13,074 bases of DNA, taken from NCBI GenBank assembly GCA_021850345.1, contig JAJZMN010000265.1, positions 1 to 13,074 of the forward strand, given 5' to 3'. The notes beneath the pieces were generated by a model. That model did not search any database, had not been told where the DNA came from, and saw nothing but the letters and a program-made list of their open reading frames with translations. The position numbers and the translations under genes were made by a program. Source of the DNA: Actinomycetes bacterium. GTDB taxonomy: Bacteria > Actinomycetota > Acidimicrobiia > Acidimicrobiales > RAAP-2. Of this stretch, positions 4,810 to 13,074 are shown piece by piece (position 1 is the stretch's first letter; every line of letters begins with the position of its first letter).

Positions 4810-5316
4810 GTGGACCTGCTGCTGGTGCGGCACGCGCACGCCGGGACCAAGGACCGCTGGGAAGGCGACGACCGGCTCCGTCCCCTGAGCCAACGCGGAC
4901 GTGCAGAGGCACTCGCCCTCGTCGACCTGATCCTCTCCTACGGGCCGAAGCAGGTCGTCACCAGTCCACTTCTCCGCTGCGTCCAGACGGTCGAGCCGCT
5001 CGCGCGGCGACTCGGTCTGCCGATCGAGCAGTCCGAGTCCCTCGGCCCCCAAGGGGATGCCGACGCTGCGCGGCTGCTGCGGACGTTGGCCCTGGCGCCG
5101 CACGCGGTCGTGGTCTGCACGCACGGTGAGACGATCGAAGCGCTCCAACGTCGGCTCGGACGACCGGGAAAGGGCTTCGGACCCGGGAGCGCCCACGAGA
5201 AGGGCTCGGTCTGGCTCCTTCGCTCGAGCGGTGGACGCTTCAGCTCGGCGATCTACCTCCCTCCGGGAAACGGCCATCGAGCAGCCGAAAGCCTCGAGGA
5301 CCCCTCGAGAGTCTGA
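4810..5316 (+). CDS. SixA-like histidine phosphatase (phosphoglycerate mutase superfamily)
   Basis: 168 residues, close to the size of SixA-type enzymes, which remove phosphate from phosphohistidine or small phosphate esters through a histidine intermediate. The signature LLLVRHAHAG gives R7 and the nucleophile H8. The second arginine is R56 in TSPLLRCVQT, and the second histidine H105 is in VVVCTHGET. An acidic candidate, E76, sits in SESLG. The protein is soluble, with no signal peptide. GTG 4810 is the first codon before the RHA motif and is probably read from a leaderless transcript. The last ~20 residues (NGHRAAESLEDPSRV) are polar and not part of the fold. Nothing in the context identifies a histidine-kinase partner, so the substrate is unknown. 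Confidence 0.88.
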   Translation: MDLLLVRHAHAGTKDRWEGDDRLRPLSQRGRAEALALVDLILSYGPKQVVTSPLLRCVQTVEPLARRLGLPIEQSESLGPQGDADAARLLRTLALAPHAVVVCTHGETIEALQRRLGRPGKGFGPGSAHEKGSVWLLRSSGGRFSSAIYLPPGNGHRAAESLEDPSRV

Positions 5317-5341
5317 CGGCCAGACGGTCGAGCCGAGCCTA

Positions 5342-5454
5342 TGGTGTCCCTGGCGCCATGGTGTCCTGGCGCCATGGCGCCATGGTGTCCTGGCGGGCCT
5401 TGGTGTCCTTGTGGGCCCTGGTGTCCTTGTGGGCCCTAATGTCCTTGTGGGCCC
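5342..5454. repeat. Tandem 16-18 bp repeats between convergent genes
   Basis: Three 18-bp copies of TGGTGTCCTTGTGGGCCC lie at 5401-5418, 5419-5436 and 5437-5454; the third begins TAA instead of TGG. They are preceded by shorter relatives at 5342-5358, 5359-5374, 5375-5382 (half unit) and 5383-5400. The array sits at the junction of the phosphatase (ends 5316) and the PASTA gene (ends 5436). The variant base pair in the third copy creates the PASTA stop codon (TAG on the minus strand, 5436-5438). There are no spacers, so it is not a CRISPR array. Confidence 0.9.
5367..5382. terminator. 16-bp perfect palindrome in the convergent junction, possible bidirectional terminator
   Basis: TGGCGCCATGGCGCCA is its own reverse complement and is flanked on both sides by TGGTGTCC-type repeat copies. 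It lies between two genes that end towards each other. No T-run follows, so intrinsic termination is uncertain. Confidence 0.35.
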
Positions 5455-6056
5455 TCCGCCCACGGAGGTCCCTTTCCCTGGGGAGTCGCGCGTGCGCGCC
5501 CGCGACCGGGAGGTGAGGACGAGACGACGACGGCGTCCACGCTCGCCGGGGAGGCAAACGGCCGCATCCACCCGGCCGAGGCGCCCGAGTGGTGAAGAGC
5601 GGTGCGGCGGGCGACCGCGAGCGCGACGACGGTCCCTTCCTTCAGGCGGCCCGCCGGGGTGAACATGACGACGCGGCCCGCGTCCCCTGCCGGAAGGGCC
5701 AGGGCCAATTGCGCCGCGCGCAGGCTGTCTCTCCTCAGCGCCGATATGGCTGCCGCATAGGAAAGCCCGTCGAGGCTCCCCGGCGGTAGGACGACGTAGC
5801 CGGAGGCGACCGTGAGCTGGACGCGGGTGCCCGGCTTGACCCGCGTGCCCGCTCGCGGGTGCTGGCCGACGACGAGGTTCGCGCCGGCCCCGGCGACGTC
5901 GACGACACGATCCGTCGTCTTCAGGTGCGCGTCGGAAAGCGCAGAGCGGGCGCCGCGCTGGAGGCGGTCCCGCACGTTGGGGACCCGCACGGTCGCCGGC
6001 GCCGCCCCCGCCGTGAGCCCGAGACCCGTCACCGCCACGACGACGGCGGCGATCAT
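5436..6056 (-). CDS. Membrane-anchored PASTA-domain protein, probably the extracellular half of a PknB-type kinase
   Basis: About 206 residues from ATG 6056; TTG 6083 (LPHGRAATAM) is an alternative and neither has a ribosome site. A hydrophobic segment (MIAAVVVAVTGLGLTAGAA) is followed by one clear PASTA domain, from VRVPNVRDRLQRGARSAL to GTRVKPGTRVQLTVASG. A weaker second repeat runs from YVVLPPGSLDGLSYAAAISA to GTVVALAVA. PASTA domains bind peptidoglycan fragments outside the cell and normally form the sensor of PknB/PrkC kinases. The frame stays open upstream through a basic stretch (STRDRRRRRLPHGR), just as in the juxtamembrane part of such kinases. It lines up with the kinase gene if one G is removed at 6139-6145. 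The C-terminus runs into the 18-bp repeats and stops at a repeat variant. An independent lipoprotein-like gene is less likely. Confidence 0.75.
   Translation of the reverse strand: MIAAVVVAVTGLGLTAGAAPATVRVPNVRDRLQRGARSALSDAHLKTTDRVVDVAGAGANLVVGQHPRAGTRVKPGTRVQLTVASGYVVLPPGSLDGLSYAAAISALRRDSLRAAQLALALPAGDAGRVVMFTPAGRLKEGTVVALAVARRTALHHSGASAGWMRPFASPASVDAVVVSSSPPGRGRARATPQGKGPPWAEGPQGH
5453..5468 (-). terminator. Small GC hairpin inside the 3' end of the PASTA frame
   Basis: CCTCCG and CGGAGG form a perfect 6-bp stem around a 4-nt loop (CCCA). It lies just inside the end of the PASTA coding region on the minus strand and abuts the repeat array. No U-tract is present; the role is uncertain. 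Confidence 0.25.
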
Positions 6057-6099
6057 CGCCGTCGCCGCGCGGCCATGCGGCAAGCGCCGCCGACGCCGA

Positions 6100-6999
6100 T
6101 CACGCGTGCTGACAGAGGTGGTCTGCCGGCTCTTCCTGCCCCCCCACCGGCACCCATACCGGCTCGGGCGGCGCGCTTGCACCGTCGTCGCGCGGAAGCT
6201 CTTCCGGTGCGGAGCGAGCGAGTCGTGGCGGCGCCGGCGGACGCGCCTCGTCTTCGAGCACTCCCGCCAGACGCTCGGCGGCTTCGGCGACCTCCCGCGC
6301 ACAACTGGGCCGGCGGTCGGGATCCCTCTCGAGCATGTCCGAGACGAGTTGTCGCACCTCCGCCGGCACGCCCCTCGGGAGGCTTGGTGCCGTCCGCCGG
6401 AGGTGCCCGAGCGCGGCCGTGACCCGCTCCTGCCCAGCGAAAGGTTGCTGGCCCGTGAGGCACTGGTAGGCGATCACACCGAGGCTGTACACGTCCGACG
6501 CGTCGGACACCGCCCCTTGGCCGGGCGTGACGCCGAAGTCGGCGATCTTCACGCGGCCGTCGGGCAACAGCACGAGGTTGGCCGGCTTGACGTCTCTGTG
6601 GACGATGCCGAGCGCGTGCGCCGCGGCGAGCACTCCGGCGGCTTGCGCGACGATGCTCATCGTCTGTGCGGGATCGAGCGGTCCCCGGCGCGCGAGCACC
6701 GAGCTGACGGGCTCTCCTTTGACGAGCTCCATCACGAGGAACAGCGTTGTGTCGTGTTCCCCGTAGTCGTAGACGCCGACGACCCCGGGGTGGGTCAGCC
6801 GGGCAGCGGCTCGCGCCTCCGCGCGGAAGTGCTCGCGATATTCGTCGTCCGGGGCGAGATCGGACCGGAGGAGCTTCAGGGCGACCCGCCGCCCGAGTAC
6901 CCGGTCGGCGGCCTCCCACACCTCGCCCATGCCCGCGCCGGCGATCCGACGGTCCAACAGGTAGCGGGAGCCGACGAGCGTGCCTGCGTCCGTGCCCAC
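6100..6999 (-). CDS. Serine/threonine protein kinase, PknB-like, with shortened activation segment
   Basis: 299 residues from GTG 6999, which follows a purine-rich ribosome site (GGGGGGAAGGG, on the minus strand). Hanks-type motifs are in order: glycine loop GAGMGEVWEA (21-30), VALK with K42, helix C Glu E61, HRDVKPAN (D136, N141), DFG (D154), DVYSLG (D169) and the R230 region. Between DFG and DVYSLG only 12 residues remain (VTPGQGAVSDAS). About 45 are usual, so the phosphorylated loop and the APE/SPE motif are missing. The kinase might therefore be inactive, constitutive, or defined by an in-frame deletion. It ends in a Pro-rich linker and a short tail (QEEPADHLCQHA) that looks like an out-of-frame ending. 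The PASTA protein starts 43 bp later. Confidence 0.9.
   Translation of the reverse strand: MGTDAGTLVGSRYLLDRRIAGAGMGEVWEAADRVLGRRVALKLLRSDLAPDDEYREHFRAEARAAARLTHPGVVGVYDYGEHDTTLFLVMELVKGEPVSSVLARRGPLDPAQTMSIVAQAAGVLAAAHALGIVHRDVKPANLVLLPDGRVKIADFGVTPGQGAVSDASDVYSLGVIAYQCLTGQQPFAGQERVTAALGHLRRTAPSLPRGVPAEVRQLVSDMLERDPDRRPSCAREVAEAAERLAGVLEDEARPPAPPRLARSAPEELPRDDGASAPPEPVWVPVGGQEEPADHLCQHA
6139..6145 (-). other. G7 run at the kinase/PASTA frame change
   Basis: On the minus strand a run of seven G interrupts VPVGG of the kinase. With six G the kinase frame would continue as RKSRQTTSVSTRDRRRRR into the transmembrane segment and PASTA domains, giving one receptor kinase of about 520 residues. This is either a sequencing indel or a real frameshift. 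Confidence 0.6.
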
Positions 7000-7139
7000 G
7001 GCCTGCCCTTCCCCCCTTGGCTGCGGCGGCAAACGGAGTGCACGTTCGGCGGCTCGAGGTGGGCAGTTGCTCGGTGCACCTGGAGTCCACCAGTCGCTCG
7101 TCGACCGTTCCCGGTTGCCCGCCCTCGGGTAGGCCGAAC

Positions 7140-7178
7140 GGGGTGGGCGACCGGGGTGGACGACCGGGGTGGACGACC
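7140..7178 (+). repeat. Three 13-bp tandem repeats at the start of the DUF6098-like gene
   Basis: Units at 7140-7152, 7153-7165 and 7166-7178; the second and third are identical (GGGGTGGACGACC) and the first has G in place of the A at position 8. Each contains a GTG, and since 13 is not a multiple of three each lies in a different frame. Only the last GTG (7169) opens the gene. Confidence 0.85.
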
Positions 7179-7519
7179 GGGCCGAAGAGGGGGAGTGGTC
7201 GGACCTCTTTGTCCCGGGGGGCCTCGAAGAGCTCGCGTCCTTCGTGCGCGCGTCGCGGCTGTACGTCCGCTCCTTCGACTGCCCCGAGCGGCACCGTGGC
7301 AAGGCCAGCACGGATTACGAGCGCGGGCTCGAGCTTCCGGGGGTCTCGGTGAACTCCCTGGCGCCCGGGCCGGGCAACGAGCCGCTTCTCGGCACATGGC
7401 GGCCCGTGGCGTTTCTCGACCCTTCGGTGCTCGCCGAGGCGAACCGCTGCTACGAGGAGCGCTTGAAGGCCGAGCGATCCTCCAAGGGTGAGGGCCGCGC
7501 GATGGGCCTCCAAGGGTGA
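7169..7519 (+). CDS. Small hypothetical protein resembling DUF6098
   Basis: 116 residues. The middle (LYVRSFDCPERHRG, DYERGLELPGVSVNSL, LGTWRPVAFLDPS) recalls actinobacterial DUF6098 proteins, in which a 'YVR...DYESGLELPGLSVNPL' pattern is typical. I make this match from memory, and the biochemical function of that family is not known. There is no signal peptide or membrane segment; the protein looks soluble. GTG 7169 is the first start after an in-frame TAG at 7130 and lies in the third 13-bp repeat. It has no clear ribosome site. The C-terminal SSKGEGRAMGLQG comes from the first copy of a 28-bp duplication, and the second copy supplies the stop in another frame. It lies 43 bp upstream of the AlkB-like gene, so joint expression is possible, although the SOS box belongs to the second gene. 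Confidence 0.7.
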   Translation: MDDRAEEGEWSDLFVPGGLEELASFVRASRLYVRSFDCPERHRGKASTDYERGLELPGVSVNSLAPGPGNEPLLGTWRPVAFLDPSVLAEANRCYEERLKAERSSKGEGRAMGLQG

Positions 7520-7534
7520 GGGCCGTGCGATGGG
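7479..7534 (+). repeat. 28-bp tandem duplication at the end of the DUF6098-like gene
   Basis: Copy 1 (7479-7506) and copy 2 (7507-7534) differ at a single base (C versus T, in GCCGCGC/GCCGTGC). Since 28 is not a multiple of three, the frame changes and the gene ends at TGA 7517-7519 inside copy 2. The SOS box starts 2 bp after the duplication. Confidence 0.9.
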
Positions 7535-7535
7535 G

Positions 7536-7549
7536 CGAACAGGTGTTCG
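7536..7549 (+). promoter_or_regulatory. LexA (SOS) box upstream of the AlkB-like gene
   Basis: CGAAC-AGGT-GTTCG is a perfect match to the actinobacterial/Gram-positive LexA core CGAAC-N4-GTTCG. Compared with the longer mycobacterial form TCGAAC-N4-GTTCGA only the first base differs (G for T). It ends 1 bp before the -10 box, where bound LexA would block RNA polymerase. Confidence 0.85.
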
Positions 7550-7550
7550 A

Positions 7551-7556
7551 TAGACT
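7551..7556 (+). promoter_or_regulatory. -10 box of a leaderless promoter for the AlkB-like gene
   Basis: TAGACT (TANNNT type) is separated by GGGCCG (6 nt) from GTG 7563. There is no Shine-Dalgarno before that codon, so transcription probably starts at or next to the start codon. The box adjoins the LexA site at 7536-7549. Confidence 0.6.
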
Positions 7557-7562
7557 GGGCCG

Positions 7563-8183
7563 GTGCTCCAGGACACGCTCTTCTCGGCCGGGGAGGAGGT
7601 GGTCATCAGGCGCGTCGACGAGGGGATGGTCCGGACGACACTCGGGAACGGAGCCTGGCTCGACTTCCGCCCGGGATGGCTGGGAGGGGCCGGGTCCCTC
7701 TTCGAGAAGCTCGAGCGTGAGGTCCCCTGGAAGGCCGAGCGGCGCCCCATGTACGAGCGGATGGTCGACGTGCCGAGGCTGCTCTGCTTCTACGACGACG
7801 GTGACCCCCTTCCTGACGTTGCGGTGGGCGAGATGCGCCGAGCGCTGAGCGATCACTACGCGCCGGTGCTCGGCGAGCGGCTCAAGACGGTCGGGATGTG
7901 CCTCTACCGCGACGGCCACGACAGCGTCGCCTGGCACGGAGACCGGATCGGCCGCGCCTCCCGGGAGGACACGGTGGTTGCCATCGTGTCCCTGGGCGCC
8001 CAGCGGCGCTTTCTTCTACGGCCGAGAGAGGGTGGCCCCGGGATGCGACTGGAGGTCGCGGCGGGCGACCTGCTCGTGATGGGCGGGACGTGCCAGCGGA
8101 CCTGGGAGCACGCCGTGCCGAAGAGCCGGCGTGCGACGGGTCCTCGTATCAGCCTGCAGTTCCGGCCGTTTGGGGTGAGGTGA
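7563..8183 (+). CDS. alkB: AlkB-like 2-oxoglutarate/Fe(II) dioxygenase, putative alkylation repair enzyme
   Basis: 206 residues. AlkB enzymes oxidatively remove methyl and other alkyl groups from DNA or RNA bases using Fe(II), O2 and 2-oxoglutarate. The iron ligands are visible as H125 and D127 (VAWHGDRIGR) and H183 (WEHAVPK). The 2-oxoglutarate-binding arginines are R195 and R201 (RISLQFRP). The double-stranded beta-helix core includes VVAIVSLGAQRRFLLRPR and the LEVAAGDLLVMGG strand. It is soluble and close to the family's usual length. GTG 7563 appears leaderless. A perfect LexA box immediately upstream of the -10 implies induction by DNA damage. Function as a base demethylase is expected from the intact active site but the actual lesion preference is unknown. 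Confidence 0.93.
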   Translation: MLQDTLFSAGEEVVIRRVDEGMVRTTLGNGAWLDFRPGWLGGAGSLFEKLEREVPWKAERRPMYERMVDVPRLLCFYDDGDPLPDVAVGEMRRALSDHYAPVLGERLKTVGMCLYRDGHDSVAWHGDRIGRASREDTVVAIVSLGAQRRFLLRPREGGPGMRLEVAAGDLLVMGGTCQRTWEHAVPKSRRATGPRISLQFRPFGVR

Positions 8184-8603: not shown

Positions 8604-10322
8604 TCAGGACTTCAGCTCGGGAAAGTCCTCCTCGCGCCACTCCGAAGCTCGCGAAGGATGCGCCTGCTCGCGTGCGCGCAGCTCGACGCGGCGGATCTTG
8701 CCCGAGATGGTCTTCGGAAGATCGAAGAACTCGATCCGTCGCACTCGTTGATAGGGCGCAAGGCGTGCGCGCGCGAAGCGGAGCACGTCGAGCGCGGTCT
8801 CGCGCGAGGGCTCCGTTCCCGGCACGAGCGAGAGGTACGCCTTGGGCACGCTGAGTCGGAGCTCGTCGGGTGAGGGGACGACCGCCGCCTCGGCGACGGC
8901 GGGGTGCTCGATGAGGACGCTCTCCACCTCGAACGGGCTCACCTTGTAGTCGGAGGACTTGAAGACGTCGTCGGTGCGGCCGACGAACGTGATGTAGCCG
9001 TCGTCGTCGCGCGCGGCGACGTCTCCGCTGTGGTAGTAGCCGCCGGACATGGCCTCGTCACCATCGCCTCGGTATCCGGCCATGAGGCTGACGGGTCGTT
9101 GCGCGAGGTCGAGGCAGAGCTCGCCCTCTCCCGGCCCGTCCACCGGAGCGCCGGTCGTGACGTCGACGAGCACGACGGGCACACCCGGCAATGGTCGCCC
9201 CATGGAGCCCGGCTTCACCTGCGTGCCCGGCGGGTTGGCGACCGATGCAGTGGTCTCCGTCTGGCCGTATCCGTCACGGATGGTGAGCCCCCACTGCTCG
9301 CGGACTTGCGCGACGACCTCGGGGTTGAGGGGTTCCCCCGCCGCGACGAGCTCGCGCAGTGTGCCGGGACCGCCGGAGAGGTCCGCCTTGATGAGCATGC
9401 GCCAGACCGTGGGTGGAGCGCAGAAGGTCGTGACCCGTTCTTCCCGGAGTCGCTCGAGCAACGTCGCAGGGGCAAAGCGCGCGTAGTTGAGCACGAGCGT
9501 GGTGGCCTCGGCGGCCCAGGGTGCGAACAGCGACGACCAGGCGTGCTTCGCCCATCCGGGCGAAGAGATGTTGCAGTGCACGTCCCCGGGCCTGGTGCCC
9601 AACCAGTACATCGTGGAGAGGTGGCCGACCGGGTACGAGACCTGCGTGTGCTCGACCAGCTTCGGCCTGCTGGTCGTGCCTGAGGTGAAGTACAGGAGGA
9701 GAGGATCGTGTGCCGCGGTCTGTGGGTGCTCGGCGGGCGCGGCGTCGAGCCGGTAGGCCTCCTCGAGATCCTCCCAGCCGTCCGCCTGACCGACCGCAAC
9801 CCGGCCGTAGTCGCCGGGCACGTCGTCGAACTTCGATACGTCGGCGGGGTTGCAGACGACGAAACGAGCGCCGGAGCGTGCCACACGATCGGCGAGGTCG
9901 GCCGGCCCCAGCGCCGTCGTGGTCGGCACCATCACCGCGCCGAGCTTCATCGCTCCGAGCATCGTCTCCCACAGCGCGACCTGGTTGCCGAGCATGACGA
10001 TGAGCGGGTCGCCGGTGCGCACGCCAACGCCGCGGAGCCACGAGGCGACCTGATCGGAGCGGGACGCGAGCTCGTCGAAGGTCTCCGCCCGGCGAGTCCC
10101 GTCCTCTTCTACGACGATGAGCGCAGGTCGCGGGTTGCCCCGGGCGATCGGGTCGAACCAATCGTGGGCCCAGTTGAACACGGGTCCCACGTCGGGGAAG
10201 GTGAACTCCGCTCGTGCACGCCGGTCGTCGCCACGCGATGCGAGCAACTGGTCGCGTGCCGCCCGATACGCCGCGGTAGCCGGGCGGTCCGCCGCGAGCG
10301 AGGGCGTTACCGGAGCGGTCAC
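8604..10322 (-). CDS. AMP-forming acyl-CoA synthetase (acetyl/medium-chain acyl-CoA synthetase-like)
   Basis: 572 residues. The enzyme activates a carboxylic acid with ATP to an acyl-AMP and then transfers it to CoA. The ANL-superfamily motifs are complete: phosphate loop YFTSGTTSRPK (211-221), WAKHAW (257-262), YGQTET (352-357), YYHSGD (429-434), the GRTDDVFKSSDYKVSPFEVE hinge (about 448-467) and the catalytic Lys K542 in TISGKIRR. The WFDP motif (55-58) and overall length fit the medium-chain/benzoate-CoA ligase branch rather than long-chain fatty acid ligases; the exact substrate cannot be read. GTG 10322 is preceded by AGGAGGAGG, 9 nt away, so the start is secure. It is cytoplasmic. A CBS-gene remnant follows its stop directly, and a 526-bp gap separates it from the recombinase cassette. 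Confidence 0.93.
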   Translation of the reverse strand: MTAPVTPSLAADRPATAAYRAARDQLLASRGDDRRARAEFTFPDVGPVFNWAHDWFDPIARGNPRPALIVVEEDGTRRAETFDELASRSDQVASWLRGVGVRTGDPLIVMLGNQVALWETMLGAMKLGAVMVPTTTALGPADLADRVARSGARFVVCNPADVSKFDDVPGDYGRVAVGQADGWEDLEEAYRLDAAPAEHPQTAAHDPLLLYFTSGTTSRPKLVEHTQVSYPVGHLSTMYWLGTRPGDVHCNISSPGWAKHAWSSLFAPWAAEATTLVLNYARFAPATLLERLREERVTTFCAPPTVWRMLIKADLSGGPGTLRELVAAGEPLNPEVVAQVREQWGLTIRDGYGQTETTASVANPPGTQVKPGSMGRPLPGVPVVLVDVTTGAPVDGPGEGELCLDLAQRPVSLMAGYRGDGDEAMSGGYYHSGDVAARDDDGYITFVGRTDDVFKSSDYKVSPFEVESVLIEHPAVAEAAVVPSPDELRLSVPKAYLSLVPGTEPSRETALDVLRFARARLAPYQRVRRIEFFDLPKTISGKIRRVELRAREQAHPSRASEWREEDFPELKS

Positions 10323-10848
10323 GTCGTTGCGCCTCCTCCTGGCGGCGCTGCCGCGTCGCCGGCTCGTCGGTGCCGGACTCCTCGGCCGACGCTACCAAGT
10401 CGACCGGTGTTGCGGCAGCCCCTCTGCGACCGTCACGGGCAGGCACGTGGAACGCGTCGTCGGATCGGGGGTCCGCCACGCCCTTGGCGAGCTCGTGAGC
10501 TGCCCGTCTGCTTGGACCAGTGGGTTGCGACCGGTCTCGTCGCGGGCTGGGTGGCTGCACCGAACCTCGCGACTGCGGCGCTCAGCGCGCTGGCGACGGC
10601 ACAGCTGAGCGACTACCTCCAAAATGAGCGATGTTGCGTAAAGTGCATCACTCGACACAATCGCGATGACGCCCTACCAGGAGTTGGTCATTTCGACCGG
10701 TGATTGAGCGATGCCGCTGCGAGGTCGGACTCCCTGGTGAGGCCGGTATCCACCGCTCGCGTGAAGATGAATGCAACGCTGTGGTGTCTGGTTTTGTGGC
10801 GTCTACTGCATCCTGGTTGCGGCCGATGCCTCAGGTGGGGAGTGCACC
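10323..10848. other. 526-bp stretch with no recognised gene, upstream of the recombinase cassette
   Basis: I see no gene with a recognisable product here. It must hold the start region of the synthetase (minus strand) and the promoter of the recombinase (plus strand). The part from about 10615 is more AT-rich than its surroundings. It contains a possible plus-strand -10 (TAAAGT, 10639-10644) and short direct repeats (TGAGCGATG at 10625 and 10705; TCGACCGGTG at 10400 and 10693). An 88-codon minus-strand frame from GTG 10658 resembles nothing I know and is probably chance. Confidence 0.5.
10400..10713. repeat. Short direct repeats upstream of the recombinase, possible recombination site
   Basis: TCGACCGGTG occurs at 10400-10409 and 10693-10702. 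TGAGCGATG occurs at 10625-10633 and 10705-10713, so two of the copies lie next to each other. Their position just outside the recombinase cassette is compatible with arm or core sites of an attachment region, but 9-10 bp matches can also arise by chance. Confidence 0.25.
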
Positions 10849-11935
10849 ATGGGGAGGCGGGCGGCGGGATCGGCGGGGCTGGTACTCGTTCGAGAAGCGA
10901 TCCCACTTCGCGCTGAGCCGGCCTTGTTCGACGCGATGCTCGAGGGGTGGAGTCGACAGCACGCGGCCCGGCGGCTCTCGCCGGCGTTCAGCCGGGGGCC
11001 AGGAACGAACGGTGCGTCGCTTTCAAGAGTTCTGCGACACCTGGCCGTGGGCGTGGGCACCCGAGCAACTCGACGCCTGGGTGGCCGAGAACCGCTGGGC
11101 ACACTCGACCGTGCGCGCCTATCAGGACGCAGTGGCCATGTTCTTGGACTTCGTGTGCGATCCTCGCTACGGCTGGGCCGAGGTGTGCCAGGAACGGGTG
11201 GGAGCGGTCCCGATCCAGATCTGCCACGAGGACAACCGCGCCGTCCACGTCGCAGAGTACGAGGGACGCCCCGGGCGCCGCCCGCTCACGCGCGCCGAGC
11301 TCCAGCAGTTGTTCGACGTGGCAGACGACAAGGTCACCGAGATCGCCCAGAACGGCCGCAAGGGATGGCTGGCGGCGTTCCGAGACGCCACGCTGATCAA
11401 GGTGGCCTACGCCTGGGGGCTGCGACGCCGGGAGGTGGCGATGCTCGACCTCTCGGACCTCTCCGCCAATTCCGCCGCGCCCGAGTTCGGTCGCTACGGG
11501 ATGCTGACCGTGCGCTACGGCAAGGCCATGCGAGGCAGCCCCCCTCGCCGGCGCCAGGTGGCGTCGATCATGGACTGGGCCGTCGACGTCCTGCACCAGT
11601 ACCTGGAAGACGTTCGTCCCCGCGCTGCTGGTGCGCTCGGTCCGGCGCTGTGGCTTTCCGAACGCGGGACACGCATCTCGCTTCGGCGCATCGACGAGTG
11701 CTTCACCGCCTATCGCCAAGTCGCGGGGCTCCCGAGCGAGCTGTCCTTGCATTGCCTTCGTCACAGCTACATTTCGCACTTGATCGAAGACGGGGTAGAC
11801 CCGTTGTTCGTCCAGCACCAGGCGGGTCACTCGTGGGCGTCGACCACCGCCATTTACACGACCGTCGGCCAGGACCATAAGAACCGCATGCTGCATGCCG
11901 CCCTCGGGCTGATCTCGGGAGGAGAGGACCGATGA
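10849..11935 (+). CDS. Tyrosine recombinase/integrase, one apparent frameshift near residue 50
   Basis: About 361 residues if the frame is repaired. The N-terminal part from ATG 10849 (ribosome site GGGGAG 6 nt upstream) reads LFDAMLEGWSRQHAARRLSP. It then leaves frame at the G5 run 10994-10998. The other frame resumes as GQERTVRRFQEFCDTWPWAW, the usual SAM-like DNA-binding domain. With four G the two join smoothly as LSPAFSRGQERTVRRF. The catalytic domain is complete: Arg in GLRRREVAMLDL, Lys in RYGKAMRG, HCLRHSYISHL (HxxR), the late His in HQAGHSW and the Tyr nucleophile in TAIYTTV. It joins or exchanges DNA at specific sites. The stop overlaps the next start (ATGA). If the frameshift is real, the enzyme would lack its N-terminal domain and may be dead. 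Confidence 0.85.
10994..10998 (+). other. G5 run at the recombinase frame change
   Basis: One G too many here separates the N-terminal frame (ending LSPAFSRG) from the frame carrying the rest of the protein (GQERTVRRF...). The sign of the change is the same as at 6139-6145. Confidence 0.55.
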
Positions 11936-12282
11936 GCCCCAAGCCCAAGACCTCGCACACCACGGTCTCGTTTCGCTGGCACCTGCGTCAGCTCATGGCC
12001 GAACGAGGGATGTTCGCCACCTCCGACCTGCTCCCGCTTTTGGCCGAGAAGGGAGTCGTGCTCTCCCGAGAGCAGGTCTACCGCCTGGTGGCCCGCACCC
12101 CGCAACGCTTGAGCCTCACGACGCTGGCTGCCCTGTGCGACATCTTCGACGTCGGCCCGGGCGAGCTGATCGAGACGGTGCATGAGAAGCGAAGCACGTC
12201 ACGTGGTGACCACGTGACGCCGAGAAAGCCGGTGAGCGAGCTGCGGCCCCGCCGGGCGCGGATCCTGCCCGAGACGCGGTGA
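11932..12282 (+). CDS. Small XRE-type helix-turn-helix DNA-binding protein
   Basis: 116 residues. Residues ~14-82 (from FRWHLRQLMAERGMF through LAALCDIFDVGPGELIE) have the pattern of a Cro/C1-type HTH domain: a first helix with RQLMAERG, a recognition region around SREQVYRLVARTP, and the closing LAALCDIFDV-P-ELIE motif. The last ~30 residues are basic and look disordered (RKPVSELRPRRARILPETR). ATG 11932 overlaps the recombinase stop and has a very strong ribosome site, GGGAGGAGAGG at 11917-11927. It ends inside the start of the zinc-ribbon gene. It probably controls the cassette or acts as a recombination accessory factor; which of these is inference. A 23-bp palindrome lies in its own 3' end. 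Confidence 0.85.
   Translation: MSPKPKTSHTTVSFRWHLRQLMAERGMFATSDLLPLLAEKGVVLSREQVYRLVARTPQRLSLTTLAALCDIFDVGPGELIETVHEKRSTSRGDHVTPRKPVSELRPRRARILPETR
12197..12219. promoter_or_regulatory. 23-bp near-perfect palindrome, candidate operator
   Basis: Arms CGTCACGTGGT (12197-12207) and ACCACGTGACG (12209-12219) are exact reverse complements around a single central G. It lies in the part of the HTH gene coding for its basic tail, about 60 bp before the next gene's start. Size and symmetry fit a dimeric HTH regulator site. Confidence 0.5.
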
Positions 12283-13074
12283 TGGCCGGGGTCCGCCGCT
12301 GTTCGCTCGGACACGACGTCGGTGCTCGAAAGGTGTCGAGGTCCTGTCCGCGCTGTCGGGTGGAGGCGGTCGTGGGCGTGGCGATGGCCGCGTGCCCGGG
12401 GCTGTCCTTCGATGCGGTCGCCGCTGCGGTGGCAGCGGTGATCACGAGTCCGGCGGCTGGCCGTGATCTCGCAGCGGCGATGGAGAACGGTCCAGACGTA
12501 CTGCTGGGCGGCGCACCGCCGGTCGTGGCCCGTCTCGTCACCGAGCTGCGCGAAAGAGGGGCGGCGCTTCCGGTGCCCGCCTGCAGCGTTTGTGGGCGCA
12601 GTGGCCTCCGGCTGACCCGGGTGGGCGCGGCCGGGCTCTGCAACCGCTGTCGCGCTCACCAGCTCGCCGAGGCGTGCAGTGGCTGTGGTCGGGTGCGCGT
12701 CGTCGTCGCAAGGGACAAAGGTGGTGGTGCCCTGTGTTTTGCCTGCTCACCGCGTCCGCGGCGGATCTGCGGGCGATGCGGACGGGTGGGCCTGATCGCC
12801 CGCCGAGCCCGTGATGGGGAACCAGACATCTGTAACGCGTGCTTTCGCACACCAATGGCCGTCTGCGGCGTGTGCGGGCGATCCCGGCGGTGTCGCTTCG
12901 TCGCCGCCGGCCAGCCGATCTGCGCGGCGTGTTCGCCCCAGCACGAACTCGACTGTGTTCACTGCGGCGAGTGTCGTCGCGTGGCGGCGCACTGGCCCGA
13001 AGGCCCGGTGTGCGAACCGTGTTACCGGGCGGCACTCCGACGGCGGGGCACCTGTGCCAGCTGTGGTCAAGAGC
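12282..13074 (+). CDS. Multi-zinc-ribbon Cys-rich protein, 3' end beyond window
   Basis: 264 residues are visible and the frame is open at the right edge. The N-terminus has a C7...C22-PRC-C25 cluster, followed by a helical Ala-rich part. From C101 onward come CxxC pairs spaced ~16-20 residues apart: CSVCGRSG/CNRC, CSGCGRVR/CFAC, CGRCGRVG/CNAC, CGVCGRSR/CAAC, CVHCGECR/CEPC and CASCGQ. That makes at least five complete zinc ribbons and the beginning of a sixth. ATG 12282 overlaps the HTH stop by one base, so it is translationally coupled. I recall actinobacterial proteins of this layout carrying a C-terminal recombinase-like domain, but that part is outside the window and cannot be confirmed. 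It probably binds nucleic acid and works with the recombinase and HTH protein. Confidence 0.8.
   Translation, partial: MAGVRRCSLGHDVGARKVSRSCPRCRVEAVVGVAMAACPGLSFDAVAAAVAAVITSPAAGRDLAAAMENGPDVLLGGAPPVVARLVTELRERGAALPVPACSVCGRSGLRLTRVGAAGLCNRCRAHQLAEACSGCGRVRVVVARDKGGGALCFACSPRPRRICGRCGRVGLIARRARDGEPDICNACFRTPMAVCGVCGRSRRCRFVAAGQPICAACSPQHELDCVHCGECRRVAAHWPEGPVCEPCYRAALRRRGTCASCGQE

Follow-up and report, generated by a model that had tools for sequence, protein, structure and literature searches.

We analyze a 13,074-nucleotide stretch of DNA from an Actinomycetes bacterium (GenBank contig JAJZMN010000265.1; hereafter, the window), at whose right end three overlapping genes encode a tyrosine recombinase (TR), a small helix-turn-helix (HTH) protein and a protein with an array of CxxC zinc ribbons (the zinc protein). 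Judged from comparisons with related loci, this trio is real and mobile, and it inserts without target duplication at clade-specific sites. We consider it very likely that the window ends with the left portion of a tyrosine-recombinase transposon in which the TR would cleave, the zinc protein would be a non-cutting subunit, and the HTH protein would set directionality or expression. The transposon family is widespread and mainly actinobacterial, and genes for metal transport, efflux and other functions travel between replicons as its cargo. We recognised no published description of the trio in the open-licence literature, and the annotations we have seen give each of its genes a separate label: “integrase”, “helix-turn-helix” or “XRE” regulator, and “hypothetical protein”. 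The combination of an active recombinase and a zinc-ribbon protein that appears catalytically dead offers a testable model of site choice by tyrosine recombinases.

The three genes occur together

A pattern scan of an 84,980-species genome set returned 334 TR relatives, and we retained the best 80 as loci. An HTH match accompanies the TR in 80 of these 80 and a zinc-protein match in 75; L007 and L033, which lie at contig ends, and L052, L063 and L080 are the loci that miss the latter. With profiles built from the same set, the HTH protein is found for 81 of 82 TRs and the zinc protein for 79 of 82, while a stricter open reading frame script finds them for 72/82 and 70/82, with gene overlaps in 65/72 and 59/70. 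Pairwise distances across 57 loci are correlated (TR-HTH 0.87, TR-zinc 0.89, HTH-zinc 0.79; host kinship not corrected). Co-occurrence and distance correlation rule out a set of unrelated island genes.

The taxon titles of the best 80 loci name Actinomycetota groups, save for single metagenome-assembled genomes of Acidobacteria (L020) and Dormiibacterota (L058). In tblastn searches, the zinc fragment encoded in the window matched 60 plasmid records and the TR, at E 1e-40, matched 189. A phage origin appears unlikely, as the TR matched none of 50,697 phage records at 1e-20; IMG/VR yielded two TR loci.

Element ends, size and cargo

Alignments between loci end sharply on both sides. On this comparison, what moves as a unit is a left end, the TR, HTH and zinc-ribbon/pseudo-recombinase genes, optional cargo, and a different right end. 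The left-end motif was derived by an expectation-maximization search of 91 upstream regions, the weakest of which score near or below zero. Its core, approximately AATTGCATCTGATGCAACATT, lies ~300-395 bp ahead of the TR reference point, and a second copy often lies ~200-230 bp before that point. We set the left boundary 10 nt before the core hexamer, on the basis of flank joins and of copies compared between replicons. The right end resembles GGAATTC-GACAATTCGAATATCCGAC--TACCAGTA and scores above 14 in 45 of 73 loci (shuffle maximum 7.4; the lowest scorer, L013, is doubtful). In those 45 loci it ends 11-5757 nt past the zinc stop; in the other 28, no clear right end was found within the stretch examined.

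Elements with both ends measure ~3.2-9.9 kb (3.83 kb in L009) and carry 0 to ~5.8 kb of cargo. Draft contigs start at the left end in L016, L036, L038 and L081, and stop at the right end in L026, L029, L036, L038, L050 and L081 (one base later in L016), as the contigs of collapsed repeats do. Among the 120 zinc-protein homologues listed of 230, the longest contig is 3.70-4.07 kb in 38, 2.90-3.30 kb in 14 and 4.10-4.50 kb in 6. Cargo between the zinc gene and the right end includes genes for an SBF-family transporter (presumably of the arsenite type), a cadmium transporter, and NUDIX, GtrA and nucleotidyltransferase proteins (eight proteins tested, two without a family); further cargo consists of MFS with MerR and of an SMR pair with TetR. 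The cargo that we inspected, a part of the whole, contains no conjugation or phage genes. A locus in the Arthrobacter family (L208; G210:C1:1881400-1883000) is an internally deleted derivative of ~550 bp with both end regions and little else, and is either similar to a miniature inverted-repeat transposable element or a decay product.

Mobility and empty sites

Nearly identical copies of the element occur on different replicons. Two plasmids of Mycolicibacterium aubagnense share a 6337 bp block with 0 mismatches, two of Curtobacterium share 4603 bp with 3 mismatches, and two of Paenarthrobacter share more than 10.2 kb (as far as the compared sequence extends) with 1 mismatch. In the M. aubagnense pair, the element sits in two diverged Tn554-like recombinase genes at one shared site (“Tn554-like” being our reading of the annotation). 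The site is unoccupied in M. dioxanotrophicus (query 1-483, 79.7%) and in M. paragordonae (query 1-577, 72.1%), where the alignment runs unbroken through the junction. A preliminary description of the window had read the three genes as one conserved mobile machine, an idea that would have lost ground had homologues not co-occurred elsewhere or had the locus never varied. Homologues do co-occur and the locus does vary; together with the sharp edges, the near-identical copies and the unoccupied allele, this bears the idea out.

When flanks are joined with zero duplication, a continuous frame results in 13 of 21 loci, or 12 of 21 after the withdrawal of L019; these 21 were chosen by hand among 73 places where both ends have values. 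Of six junctions tested for a Pfam domain running across, two are clear (L009, L028), two are crossed by three residues (L020, L023), and two are not crossed (L012, L019).

Several points weigh against this account. The left- and right-end motifs were trained on the same loci that they score, and the frames of the 12 supporting loci were chosen after the joined sequences had been viewed. Nine of the 21 joined-flank loci give no support for a simple empty site: the joins of L003, L008, L011, L024, L030 and L061 form no recognised gene, L026 and L031 are without a flank, and a restored gene at L019 was rejected, the flanks there belonging to two different recombinase-like genes. A flank search in the Arthrobacter family did not reveal an empty site with synteny. 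Neither transposition nor an excision circle nor a protein contact has been observed. The window itself is without a right end and without over half of the zinc protein, and the mobility of its copy would follow by analogy with its relatives.

The flank of L064, searched in 15 genomes of the genus, matched a repeated gene family with no synteny on the right. In both flank genes of L019 the cut lies 3 nt past a Tyr codon. Two further Streptomyces genomes (L172-L180, L182, L183) have the right-flank gene of L019 alone, adjoining a right end; in G621 and G664, which have this gene in common with L019, a matching left flank was not found.

Target sites

In 8 of 73 loci, the left end begins 3 nt past a Tyr codon whose placement resembles that of the catalytic tyrosine in a TR gene, compared to 0, 0, 1, 0, 0 and 0 for shifted controls, and the L023 insertion fits this pattern apart from one motif residue. 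At L008 and L009, which are closely related to the window copy, recombinase-like genes are cut at one equivalent position after DLRHFxA. Some relatives insert precisely where another recombinase gene has its active-site codon, a choice that suggests direct conflict between mobile elements. The left ends of L013, L022 and L033 lie directly behind a stop codon that follows SGCS, which we take to be the end of the ribonucleotide reductase NrdJ, and L017, L025 and L032 have a common flank, presumably an HNH gene.

For the Serinicoccus-type clade, CACACCTCTTGCAY stands ~9 bp left of the cut. Three of its six occurrences in three genomes are by known elements (L202, L204, L207) and one is by a core-like left end (L205); the reversed control pattern occurs once. 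Because the remaining two (L203, L206) have no trio-type end, CACACCTCTTGCAY belongs to the target and not to the element. Both of these loci, in genome G002, contain CACACCTCTTGCAT with a common left context and no trio-type end behind it, and some other repeated sequence or element uses that context.

Proposed roles of the three proteins

The TR belongs to the tyrosine recombinase superfamily by its R-K-H-R-H/W-Y set and its Phage_integrase domain. R-K-H-R-H-Y is kept in 91 of 91 aligned TRs, including the window copy, in which the complete R-K-HxxR-H-Y set that the preliminary description had reported is located at codons starting at 11423 (R), 11522 (K), 11750 (H), 11759 (R), 11828 (H) and 11855 (Y).

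Those zinc proteins that have a stop form two classes, one long (n = 44; ~610-860 aa, 12-18 CxxC) and one short (n = 24; 6-7 CxxC, mostly ~390-520 aa, with L077 at 155 aa and L060 at 187 aa). The C-terminus of a full-length homologue has a tyrosine-recombinase fold in a structure search, a look-up whose listing leaves room for families outside it, and a profile-profile alignment with the TR is co-linear and weak (E 0.11). A search with three full-length zinc proteins gave no NCBIfam match at E <=1. Across 51 sequences, the HxxR histidine, the GH histidine and a Tyr at the aligned nucleophile positions 675-676 are all absent, and the zinc protein looks like a dead recombinase. An earlier suggestion that the ribbons front a second recombinase therefore stands as far as the fold is concerned and fails at the aligned catalytic positions, which have no Tyr or His. 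The loss of Arg-I is uncertain, which counts against the subunit model: the aligned position has no R, and an R stands one residue on in 36 of 51.

In the model we favor, the TR would do all strand cleavage via its tyrosine, cutting and joining both ends and the target. The zinc protein, with 6-18 CxxC knuckles ahead of a non-catalytic fold, would enter the synaptic complex as a non-cutting subunit, binding the element ends and/or the target and acting in synapsis or target choice; we infer, in line with an idea raised in the preliminary description, a targeting or bridging role. The HTH protein would bind near the left end and set directionality or expression. A further proposal, which we hold tentatively and regard as rather doubtful, is that the zinc-ribbon array on the dead recombinase reads the target, and that changed ribbons re-aimed clades at highly conserved motifs in coding sequence, chiefly the active-site codons of competing recombinases, which would be inactivated on entry. 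Inteins likewise use conserved active sites. If true, the array would let a tyrosine-recombinase transposon select its targets by means of a protein guide that can evolve.

It is improbable that the zinc and HTH proteins are instead a regulator pair, acting on transcription only, with the TR transposing alone. Such a pair would suit the Cro/C1-type domain of HTH_26 and the second core-like motif found ahead of the TR in many loci, but the near-universal retention of a large recombinase-fold protein would exceed a regulator's needs. Extra HTH and zinc-protein pairs without an intact TR lie behind complete trios in L001 (8117-11009), L021 (14853-16700) and L061 (4770-7369); those in L001 and L021 result from one element landing in another's TR, and all are compatible with regulator-pair and subunit readings alike.

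Very improbable, in our view, is a zinc protein that remains an active recombinase with a displaced nucleophile, Y687 of L009. This residue is Y, and R646 (Arg-II; L009 numbering) is R, each in 50 of 51 homologues, and the Arg next to the Arg-I position would fit as well; however, both histidines and the Tyr at 675-676 are missing throughout, and Y687 sits on the next helix of the structural model.

Comparison with known systems

Tn554 (TnpA-TnpB-TnpC) is not known to have terminal repeats or to make a target duplication, and the trio elements share non-identical ends and the absence of target duplication. Both are also built from three linked genes, two for recombinase-fold proteins (one short, one long) and one for a small protein; both show site preference, and identical or near-identical copies occur on different replicons in both. 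The trio differs in that one of its two recombinase folds keeps the Tyr/His residues (the TR has 6/6 catalytic residues, the zinc protein neither Tyr nor His), as well as in its zinc-ribbon array, the HTH_26 protein in the middle and its many target sites. Van Houdt 2012 (PMC3414803) describes actinobacterial Tn554-like pairs with a partner of 611-828 aa, lists pBD2, pRHL3, pRHL2 and pREL1, and infers mobility from identical copies on different replicons. On these four whole plasmids the trio TR model reaches at most 44 bits, against at least 374 bits for its 27 best matches in 19 trio genomes, placing the TR outside the TnpA/TnpB clade at the sequence level only. The zinc and HTH profiles miss the Tn554-like recombinases and the one DUF6262 (TnpC) protein tested, from L190 (best E 0.24 and 0.32, the latter being the HTH profile against this single protein), and trio elements are found inside genes annotated in a way that we read as Tn554-like recombinases. 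That the trio is an actinobacterial Tn554 family element with diverged TnpB and TnpC is, in our view, very improbable.

Gamma-Mobile-Trio (GMT; GmtX, GmtY, GmtZ) is likewise a mobile module of three genes, one of them for a tyrosine recombinase and another for a long protein. The window TR scores 14.5 and 15.6 bits against its NCBIfam models, versus cut-offs of 340 (GmtY) and 600 (GmtZ). By sequence, then, the trio differs from both Tn554-like and GMT systems. RIT elements, which also have three overlapping co-directional genes moving together, consist of three tyrosine recombinases according to PMC3414803, whereas the trio has one TR, one HTH protein and one degenerate recombinase fold in place of three catalytic recombinases in a row. 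Compared to Tn916/Tn1549-type integrases, the TR has two partner genes, and the cargo inspected carries no genes for conjugation. The available portion of Smyshlyaev 2021 (PMC8138268) describes TnpA and Rit groups, and the word “zinc” does not appear in it.

The window copy

The features of the window copy are listed in Table 1. The window probably contains the left ~2.45 kb of an element whose full size, by analogy with relatives, would be ~3.8 kb, the sequence stopping inside it. Its left end at ~10622, overlooked in the preliminary description, is placed by a low motif score (13.0) and by comparing it with those of L009 (9589), L007 and L008.

Table 1. Features of the trio element in the window
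Feature	Position	Strand	Remarks
Element left end	10622..10652	+	10 nt plus imperfect-palindrome core; TTGC...GCATCA in the window's clade
Non-coding leader, left end to TR gene	10653..10848	+	Alignable to L007 from 10732
Tyrosine recombinase (TR) gene	10849..11935	+	Phage_integrase 5.3e-18; catalytic set complete; reading frame changes ~10996-11000
HTH_26 gene, small Cro/C1-type helix-turn-helix protein, 116 aa	11932..12282	+	Pfam HTH_26 1.9e-15; 4-nt overlap with TR stop
Zinc-ribbon/degenerate-recombinase gene, N-terminal 265 aa	12279..13074	+	13 CxxC; gene cut by the window end

Part of what had been read from the letters alone held up. The genes do overlap stop to start (TR stop 11935 and HTH ATG 11932; HTH stop 12282 and zinc-protein GTG 12279), the small XRE-type protein matches HTH_26, and the zinc fragment has 13 CxxC pairs, above the maximum of 8 (mean 2.8) in 2000 same-residue shuffles. 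A recombinase in a single open frame from 10849 was not confirmed: homology to L007, L008 and L009 runs in frame 1 until ~10995 and in frame 2 from ~11000. On this pattern the window TR is frame-shifted, genuinely or through sequencing error, and because its frame is broken the window copy may be inactive. Identity to L007 is 74.8% over 10732-12181, and the HTH proteins of the two are 62% identical over 108 aligned columns. The zinc fragment is 45% identical to the L009 homologue (698 aa) over 243 residues and 55% identical to that of L008 (684 aa) over 225 residues.

An empty site for the window was not found: in 395 genomes of the class of G011, whose locus L013 has the title Acidimicrobiaceae, the flank matches over the acyl-CoA ligase at no more than 67-70%, and the best matches end ~90 bp or more short of the start of that gene. 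From there to the element's left end (10323-10621) the window has no recognised gene, and two frames left of the element have no Pfam domain. The genes upstream, of proline dehydrogenase, EamA transporter, short-chain dehydrogenase, histidine phosphatase, protein kinase, 2OG-Fe(II) oxygenase and acyl-CoA ligase type, look like ordinary chromosome, and the ligase matches make an actinobacterial host likely.

Additional observations

The zinc gene of L060 is interrupted by an insertion (11298-14517) encoding a protein that by eye resembles an ISL3-type transposase. L068 contains two short-class elements close together in opposite orientation (5143-7930 and 10001-12746). In L191 (3036-4160), a bleomycin resistance gene predicted in PLSDB lies over a transposon ATP-binding protein and is probably a mis-call.
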